Shown: positions 2,989 through 4,005 of the stretch, piece after piece
Layout of the letters: every line of letters starts with the position of its first letter
How positions within the stretch are numbered: position 1 is the first letter of the stretch
Virus record (IMG/VR): IMGVR_UViG_3300042894_001844
Span: 1-36,583 of that record
Length of the DNA stretch: 36,583 nt
From: a virus
Direction: 5' to 3' (one strand)
Made by a program: the position numbers and the translations under genes
Notes under the pieces: generated by a model
Database searches by the model: none
The model's input: the letters and a program-made list of their open reading frames with translations, nothing else
What the model was told of the DNA's origin: nothing

Positions 2989-3019
2989 TTGCATAATTAA
3001 AAAACTTATAGTATATTTG
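2989..3019 (+). promoter_or_regulatory. Promoter of the suppressor tRNA
   Basis: TTG at 2989-2991 and TATATTTG at 3012-3019, spacing 20. The tRNA begins 13 nt downstream and is closed by its own terminator, so it appears to be an independent single-tRNA transcription unit. Confidence 0.75.
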
Positions 3020-3032
3020 TATTATAAGATTT

Positions 3033-3103
3033 GATTCTATGATGTAACGGCAGCGTAACGGTCTCTAAAACCGAGTGTGAGGGTTCGATTCCCTCTAGAA
3101 TCA
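3033..3103 (+). tRNA. Amber suppressor tRNA, anticodon CTA
   Basis: Acceptor GATTCTA/TAGAATC is perfect; T arm GAGGG-TTCGATT-CCCTC is perfect; D stem ATGT/GCGT has G-U pairs; anticodon stem ACGGT/ACCGA has four pairs; variable loop of 4 nt; A73. The loop CTCTAAA has U33 and A37 and puts CTA (3065-3067) at 34-36, which reads UAG. This loop is the same as in classical amber suppressors. The short variable loop excludes Ser, Leu and Tyr class-II forms; the charged amino acid cannot be read from sequence (Gln is usual for phage CTA tRNAs). No CCA is encoded. It lies 55 nt upstream of a gene with TAG as codon 4. Confidence 0.85.
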
Positions 3104-3126
3104 CAAAAAGGATTTACCTTTTTTAA
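3104..3126 (+). terminator. Terminator of the suppressor tRNA
   Basis: AAAAAGG and CCTTTTT form a 7-bp stem with loop ATTTA, ending in a T run. It starts right after the tRNA 3' end and separates it from the amber-containing gene. Confidence 0.7.
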
Positions 3127-3134
3127 AAAAGTAA

Positions 3135-3143
3135 TATATTTAT
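3135..3143 (+). promoter_or_regulatory. TATATTTAT motif before the amber-interrupted gene
   Basis: TATATTTAT ends 15 nt before the ATG at 3159; no TTG is found 20 nt upstream. The tRNA upstream uses the TATATTTG class, so the tRNA and the gene that needs it seem to have different promoters. Confidence 0.45.
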
Positions 3144-3158
3144 ATAAAAACAAACAAG

Positions 3159-3503
3159 ATGAACAATTAGGTTTCAAAATTAAGAGTAGTCTCTAGAAGA
3201 GATTTATCATTAGGTACCCAAGCCTTACAATCTGGTCATGCTGCTATTGATTTCCAATATCAATACCCAAACATAGGGTCAGAGTGGCAAAACAAATCAA
3301 ATTATTTGGTGTTTTTAACTGTAGCCAACGAACAAGAGCTATATAAGTTAATCGACAAGGCTGATTCTAGAGGAATCAAGTACACTATCTTTCGTGAACC
3401 AGATATCCATAATGAAATTACCGCAATAGCTTTTGAACCATCTGATGCTAGTAAGAAAATTACTAGTTCATGTCCTCTATTGGGTAAAAATAACAACAAT
3501 TAA
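3159..3503 (+). CDS. PTH2-like peptidyl-tRNA hydrolase with in-frame amber at codon 4
   Basis: ATG AAC AAT TAG opens a 115-codon frame ending in TAA. If TAG is read through, the 114-residue product continues VSKLRVVSRRDL, then ALQSGHAAIDF (His27), KSNYLVFLTVANEQEL and FREPDIHNEITAIAFEP. This is the PTH2 pattern of a basic first strand, QxxHAA helix, a strand-helix unit and a C-terminal D...TAIA block. No ATG, GTG or TTG occurs in frame between the TAG and TTG 3306, so the conserved N-terminal third can only come from the ATG before the amber. The adjacent CTA tRNA would supply read-through. PTH2 enzymes free tRNA from peptidyl-tRNA. A dead gene is possible, but the rest of the frame is intact. 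Confidence 0.75.
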
Positions 3504-3624
3504 AACATATAAATTATGAATTAGATTAAAGCACCGCCTTAAGTTTATATCAACATAGACACTTACATAGTCAACTTGGCTATGTCTACGAAAATTATAA
3601 AATAAACTTAAAAACATAGACAAA
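3504..3624 (+). other. Short intergenic region with ATG-AAT-TAG mini-frame and hairpin
   Basis: At 3515 a second start with an early amber occurs: ATG AAT TAG, then six sense codons (IKAPP after the amber) and TAA. Beyond it ACATAG (3565-3570) pairs with CTATGT (3580-3585) in a hairpin, and the words TAAACTTA and ACATAGACA flank the next start codon. It may be a leader of the gene at 3625; the frame is too short to call a gene. Confidence 0.3.
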
Positions 3625-4005
3625 ATGAAAACTCAAGAACAAAAAGAACAAGAAGTATTGAATTACTTCGATAAAACATCACAACACTTATTTGTAACTA
3701 ATGATGGTGTTATATTTAAAATAATAACGTTTAAACACGAGGATAAAACTTATTACTCTAAGTTGGTAATAAACAAAGGTAAAGCTACTATAACAACCAG
3801 ACAACCATTTCAATGGGGTATGGGTCTTAAGCAATCATGGAAGCATACATTCTTCCCAGACTATTTAGAGATAAAAGCCATAAAGCACTTTAATAAGTTC
3901 AGAACAATTGAATTTAACTTGTTTTTTAGATTATCACCAGACAATGAAAAGAATCAAGATAGTCTAGATAAATTGATTGAAATGTATAAGTTTTTTGAAG
4001 AATAA
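3625..4005 (+). CDS. Unknown protein, 126 aa
   Basis: A complete frame starting in an A-rich leader and ending 12 nt before a strong terminator. The N-terminus is a charged helix (KTQEQKEQEVLNYFDK); the middle alternates strands with many Tyr, Phe and Lys; the C-terminus is a helix ending in FFEE. Compact and soluble, with no recognised family. With the amber-containing gene before it, it may share the transcript closed by the terminator at 4018. Confidence 0.6.
   Translation: MKTQEQKEQEVLNYFDKTSQHLFVTNDGVIFKIITFKHEDKTYYSKLVINKGKATITTRQPFQWGMGLKQSWKHTFFPDYLEIKAIKHFNKFRTIEFNLFFRLSPDNEKNQDSLDKLIEMYKFFEE

Follow-up and report, generated by a model that had tools for sequence, protein, structure and literature searches.

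The locus analyzed here raises the question of what a suppressor tRNA may read in a phage that keeps the standard genetic code. The window, that is, the whole stretch of DNA that was analyzed, is an IMG/VR viral record of 36,583 bases in which Bacteroidota-type promoters were read by eye. A first-pass annotation of the window had described a tRNA with anticodon CTA, bearing its own promoter and terminator, followed by a gene for a PTH2-like peptidyl-tRNA hydrolase that begins ATG AAC AAT TAG, stays open for 110 more codons, and has no in-frame ATG, GTG, or TTG until deep in the conserved domain. Our comparison with related phages makes it highly probable that this standard-code phage carries a suppressor-tRNA-gated regulon consisting of a direct gate and an attenuation leader.

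The amber codon of the PTH2-like gene and the adjacent suppressor tRNA

The features of the locus are listed in Table 1. The tRNA was recovered by both ARAGORN and Rfam as a cloverleaf with a stop-complementary anticodon, with an RF00005 score of 57.1 bits against a cut-off of 29, and the promoter and terminator described for it were also recognized. The tRNA-Pyl label assigned by ARAGORN reflects the CTA anticodon only; when the suppressor tRNA bodies were compared with their nearest isotypes for the inserted amino acid, they showed likeness to several isotypes.

Table 1. Positions of the features of the gated locus in the window
Feature	Position	Strand	Evidence
Bacteroidota-type promoter of the suppressor tRNA, TTG-N19-TATATTTG	2989..3018	+	Sequence; kept in L002 and L004
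Suppressor tRNA, anticodon CTA	3033..3104	+	ARAGORN; Rfam RF00005; kept in L002, L004, and L005
Terminator-like hairpin 3' of the tRNA, AAAAAGG-ATTTA-CCTTTTTT	3104..3124	+	Read by eye from the sequence
Amber-gated PTH2-like gene, ATG AAC AAT TAG ... TAA	3159..3503	+	Pfam PTH2; homologues with the same early stop
Gating amber codon (codon 4) of the PTH2-like gene, next base G (purine)	3168..3170	+	Sequence
Amber-gated arrest-like leader ORF, ATG AAT TAG ATT AAA GCA CCG CCT TAA (M-N-amber-I-K-A-P-P-stop)	3516..3542	+	Same peptide in L002; counterparts elsewhere
5' arm of the sequestering stem, located where the leader ORF ends	3539..3550	+	ViennaRNA fold; statistics over 17 loci
Inner hairpin between the arms	3565..3585	+	ViennaRNA fold
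3' arm of the stem, 13 bases 5' of the next start codon	3600..3611	+	ViennaRNA fold
Putative leader-controlled small gene (group 1)	3625..4005	+	Aligned family A6; no Pfam, PHROG, or PDB-fold match

The reading frame of the PTH2-like gene was likewise as described. From the start at 3159 and the TAG at 3168-3170, the frame runs on for 110 codons to the TAA at 3501-3503. Downstream of the gating TAG, the frame contains no ATG, and TTG and GTG first occur 45 and 46 codons past the stop, respectively; thus, the PTH2-like domain could not be made without decoding of the stop codon.

The assignment of the product as a PTH2-like peptidyl-tRNA hydrolase held for the fold and failed for the catalytic motif. 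While the profile comparisons gave a PTH2 fold (Pfam E value, 1.1e-9; PDB PTH2 chains, 5e-7), the alignment to solved PTH2 showed GT/GY in place of the catalytic lysine motif G-K-G-K. Since this motif is replaced, the protein may bind rather than hydrolyze peptidyl-tRNA, and its hydrolase activity is putative. No relative turned up when bacterial genome contigs were scanned with the PTH2-like profile for host homologues.

Recurrence of the early stop and its match with the suppressor tRNA

The PTH2-like profile search returned 58 viral loci. When these loci and the phage-collection records were counted together, 46 related phage genes, the window's included, had an in-frame stop downstream of an ATG and upstream of the conserved domain; they fall into 19 clusters at 60% identity. 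Counted from the outermost ATG found, 37 of the 46 genes have the stop at codon 3 or 4. Among close relatives, L002 (a 137-kb contig) has a CTA tRNA and a PTH2-like gene starting ATG AAG TAG ATT, and L004 and L005 have a suppressor tRNA and the start ATG AAA TAG GTT. The PTH2-like proteins of these three are 73 to 76% identical to that of the window, and the codons flanking the gate nonetheless differ. The gate is also found in several huge phages and in two cultured phages, Tenacibaculum phage pT24 (ATG AAA TAG ATA) and Acinetobacter phage ME3 (ATG ACT TAG ATT). In GenBank, the annotated PTH2-like genes of pT24 (L083, NC_049383 192637-195939) and ME3 (L089, NC_041884 165131-168403) begin within the domain, their true start being masked by the early TAG. 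The early stop is a trait of the divergent PTH2-like family and is missing from the canonical second PTH2 copies taken from eight of the same phages. The first-pass annotation had considered that homologues might have an ordinary sense codon at this place and no CTA tRNA; the opposite was found, as the close homologues keep both the amber codon and the tRNA. Sequencing error, decay, or chance at the gate was ruled out by the recurrence of the stop in 46 genes, two cultured phages among them, together with the conservation of the protein after the stop.

Some other features were noted around these genes. A second gated PTH2-like N terminus in L029 (2169-2970) runs for about 25 residues before diverging, as though an insertion had interrupted it. 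The PTH2-like domain, read by eye, is apparently fused to an HD-type domain in L056, L083, L086, and L087, with the partner at the C terminus in some of these phages and at the N terminus in others. An in-frame TGA lies inside the canonical PTH2 copy of L104 and early in the PTH2-like gene of L106/L061. Predicted tmRNA-like genes lie about 6 kb or less from the PTH2-like gene in L004, L030, L037, L041, L044, L048, L052, and L059, which suggests a ribosome-rescue neighborhood.

In most TAG-gated loci, a CTA tRNA lies within 3 kb of the gene; pT24 and ME3 have about four tRNA genes each, one of which is CTA. In the TAA-gated L062 and L066, a tRNA with anticodon TTA takes the place of CTA. The leader of L066 (see below) reads ATG ACG TAA GTA AAT AAA CCA CCG TAG, in which the gate is TAA and the terminal stop has moved to TAG. 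The PTH2-like gate, the leader gate, and the anticodon have therefore all switched together in L066, where the PTH2-like gene also appears, in this contig, to be frameshifted late in its sequence. Since both gates and the anticodon change together, suppression itself is probably the selected trait, and the co-switch would be hard to explain otherwise. No matching tRNA was seen in the examined stretches of L039, LR756504, and LR745206, the latter two being records whose tRNA genes number in the dozens and were typed only in part. In the distant relatives L067-L071, L076, L077, and L081, most of which have an ordinary or unclear PTH2-like start, the first tRNA gene past the PTH2-like gene is stop decoding (CTA; TCA in L076), hinting that the PTH2-like protein works with the suppressor tRNA.

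It could be argued that translation begins past the stop, at a rare start codon such as AUU or GUU, or reinitiates after a start-stop mini-ORF, leaving the suppressor tRNA incidental. The codon after the stop is indeed often ATT or GTT/GTA, but it is also AAT, AGA, GGC, GGA, AAC, or ATC. Where a Shine-Dalgarno motif is clear, it lies mostly 6 to 8 nt 5' of the pre-stop ATG, a spacing that fits the first ATG and places the predicted start of translation upstream of the gating stop. Only the mycobacteriophage group (ATG TAG GTG or GTG TAG GTG) departs from this, its motif fitting the post-stop GTG, as a downstream start would have it; this group was left out of the gated count despite the CTA tRNA nearby. 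Reinitiation, moreover, does not predict that the type of stop tracks the tRNA anticodon in both the PTH2-like gene and the leader. We consider a downstream start improbable. The mycobacteriophages with these starts and a nearby CTA tRNA are Cane17 (L092), Myrna (L085), and Phabba (L091), and their arrangement is possibly a relic of the gate.

The base following the gating stop (+4) was also compared with that of ordinary terminal stops in the genomes tallied. It is a purine at all 64 gating stops and at 48 of 102 ordinary terminal TAGs, with a P value of 1.8e-15 that is indicative only, as related sequences are not independent. A purine at +4 has been reported to aid amber suppression (PMC6266110). 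Because the +4 base is always a purine, the context of the gate is expected to favor suppression.

It may also be asked whether the ATG-NNN-stop prefixes work like bar minigenes and release short peptidyl-tRNAs, so that the synthesis of the PTH2-like protein would sense drop-off instead of the suppressor level. In the bar minigenes of phage lambda, high peptidyl-tRNA drop-off is expected at early codons. The gates, lying mostly at codons 3 and 4, are where drop-off should be high, and the gated protein has a PTH2 fold. However, minigenes predict neither the joint change of stop and anticodon nor the +4 purines, and the domain would still require decoding of the stop; drop-off sensing could act in addition. 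As a replacement for suppressor-operated gating, minigenes appear a shade less plausible than a downstream start.

TAG serves as an ordinary terminal stop in the window, where it ends 6 of the 38 genes of at least 100 aa (the first-pass annotation had given seven other TAG-ended genes). It also terminates a normal share of genes in G001, G003, G004, pT24, and ME3, including 29 of 255 in pT24 (235 kb) and 22 of 195 in the 155 kb of ME3 covered. In an early-TAG scan of the window and these five genomes, no further convincing early-TAG gene was found, the PTH2-like gene being the only one in pT24 and ME3; most of the other candidates lie across ordinary ORFs, and no other locus has a counterpart of any of them. 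G035 has a TAA gate even though TAA terminates 19 of 26 genes. Many in-frame TAGs with TAG unused as a terminator were thus not found, and the tallies rule out whole-genome recoding in these genomes, in line with the first-pass annotation. That the early stop is one recoded codon of many, under genome-wide reassignment as in code-15 phages, is the least credible explanation and very unlikely: some relatives are recoded, L008 and L047 having additional in-frame TAGs in the PTH2-like gene, but in the window, G001, G003, pT24, and ME3 in-frame TAGs are confined to the gates.

The proposal of a local suppressor-tRNA switch is strongly supported by the conserved early stop, the co-switch of stop and anticodon, the Shine-Dalgarno spacing, the +4 purine, and the standard code elsewhere. 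A stop-locked gene with its cognate suppressor tRNA in many large phages looks like a natural tRNA-operated genetic switch.

A second stop-gated element downstream of the PTH2-like gene

The earlier account of the locus as a single gated gene was incomplete, since it missed a second gated element, the stem that follows it, and the gene downstream. The leader mini-ORF lies directly 3' of the PTH2-like gene. L002 encodes the identical peptide with synonymous codon changes, the leader of L027 reads M-M-amber-IYRAPP, and that of L028 has ILRAPP; IRPP, KRGP, IRGPT, IRAPT, IKPP, VKPP, and IRSP are found in other loci. In total, 18 loci have a stop-gated RAPP-like leader upstream of a small gene. No convincing leader was found in pT24, ME3, G018, G022, or G028, and no other TAG mini-ORF with the motif [RK]-[AGS]-P-P/T was found in the window, G001, G003, or G004. 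The leader motifs resemble the RAPP/RGPP arrest sequences (PMC10951233, PMC12992588), and the proposed arrest is putative: the leaders are very short ORFs, few of them (L027 and L028) contain RAPP itself, and KAPP, RPP, RGPT, KPP, and RSP deviate from the tested consensus. In L050 (2600-2857), an 82-codon ORF starting ATG AGC TAG lies directly 3' of the CTA tRNA and is a possible further gated gene.

The bases after the motif pair with the start region of the small gene in nearly all of 17 loci, and the pairing persists while the arm sequences differ. Combined by Fisher's method, the leader stems gave P values of 4e-17 against shuffles and 2e-11 against other segments of these loci; these P values, like that for the +4 base, overstate the number of events, as sequences of one clade are not independent. 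The pairing between the arm and the ribosome-binding site in the window itself is only moderately significant (P = 0.014 against shuffled sequences and 0.12 against other segments). L047 has no clear stem, and the arm of L038 starts close to the motif, not past the stop codon. When a stalled ribosome was modelled, the start region became free in most loci. As in RAPP-type leaders, an mRNA structure that a stalled ribosome would open covers the downstream start, weakly in L047 and moderately in the window.

The small ORF lies 52 to 126 nt 3' of the leader and belongs to several families among which no relationship was detected in the comparisons made. For downstream gene groups 1 and 2, Pfam, PHROGs, and AlphaFold plus Foldseek gave nothing significant, and profile comparison found no relationship between groups 1 and 2 or between groups 2 and 3.

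Proposed circuit and related systems

The conserved gate, its matching anticodon, the favorable context, the start site, the leader motif, and the stem, all taken from sequence comparison, point to a mechanism in which read-through in cells would lead to arrest and derepression. The phage would make the UAG-decoding tRNA. Without the charged suppressor tRNA, the UAG-locked PTH2-like gene would yield a di- or tripeptide and then stop, and with it the full PTH2-like protein. The second UAG-locked mini-ORF would encode an arrest-like peptide (I-K-A-P-P in the window and R-A-P-P, R-G-P-T, or the like in other loci). A ribosome that reads the leader UAG would pause at the motif, cover the 5' arm, and free the start of the next gene, turning the gene on, while a ribosome terminating at the UAG would be too far upstream to cover the arm. 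The purpose may be that factors coping with suppression, by handling peptidyl-tRNA or stalled ribosomes, are made only once the suppressor works. The feedback loop suggested by the first-pass annotation, through the PTH2-like product acting on tRNA, is a guess. It is conceivable, though we lean against it, that the suppressor tRNA serves as sensor in a homeostatic circuit in which the PTH2-like and leader-controlled proteins act back on the suppressor or on disturbed ribosomes, the phage thus measuring and limiting its own stop suppression.

Each part of this circuit has known counterparts. In the code 15 crAss-like and Lak phages (PMC9523058, PMC11210395, PMC8346664), a phage-encoded CTA tRNA also reads UAG; there, in-frame TAGs occur in many genes, whereas here only one gene and one leader are gated and TAG is otherwise a stop. 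The RAPP/RGPP-type leaders of ApdA, ApdP, and SecM (PMC10951233, PMC12992588) are likewise short upstream ORFs with a RAPP-like end and an mRNA stem near the next start, but the peptide here is much shorter, entry is stop gated, the input would be a suppressor tRNA and not Sec/YidC, and the arrest is putative. The jumbo phages XacN1 and Atu_ph07 (PMC5852040, PMC6102473) have suppressor tRNAs and peptidyl-tRNA hydrolase genes under the standard code. The XacN1 authors looked for a target gene of the suppressor tRNA and found none (PMC5852040); in contrast to the gated genes, the PTH2-like ORF of XacN1 lacks both an early stop and a neighboring suppressor tRNA. With the query used, Atu_ph07 yielded no PTH2-like match. 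In a synthetic "leak dampener" feed-forward loop in E. coli (PMC7969014), amber codons are placed right after start codons and a suppressor tRNA is supplied. As proposed here, the protein needs the suppressor tRNA, and the loop also works with opal stops; unlike here, it is engineered, has arbitrary targets, and lacks an attenuation leader. The open literature searched contained no account of PTH2-like genes gated in this way or of arrest leaders gated by amber codons, subscription papers and preprints being outside the scope. The parts are known and the circuit appears not to be.

Suppressor tRNAs of non-recoding phages had no known target, and a specific, conserved candidate target can now be named that is present in cultured phages. 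The gates also expose genes that current annotation truncates or misses. The second gated element would make an attenuation switch responsive to stop-codon decoding, and the whole would be a natural counterpart of the engineered amber-gated feed-forward circuit.
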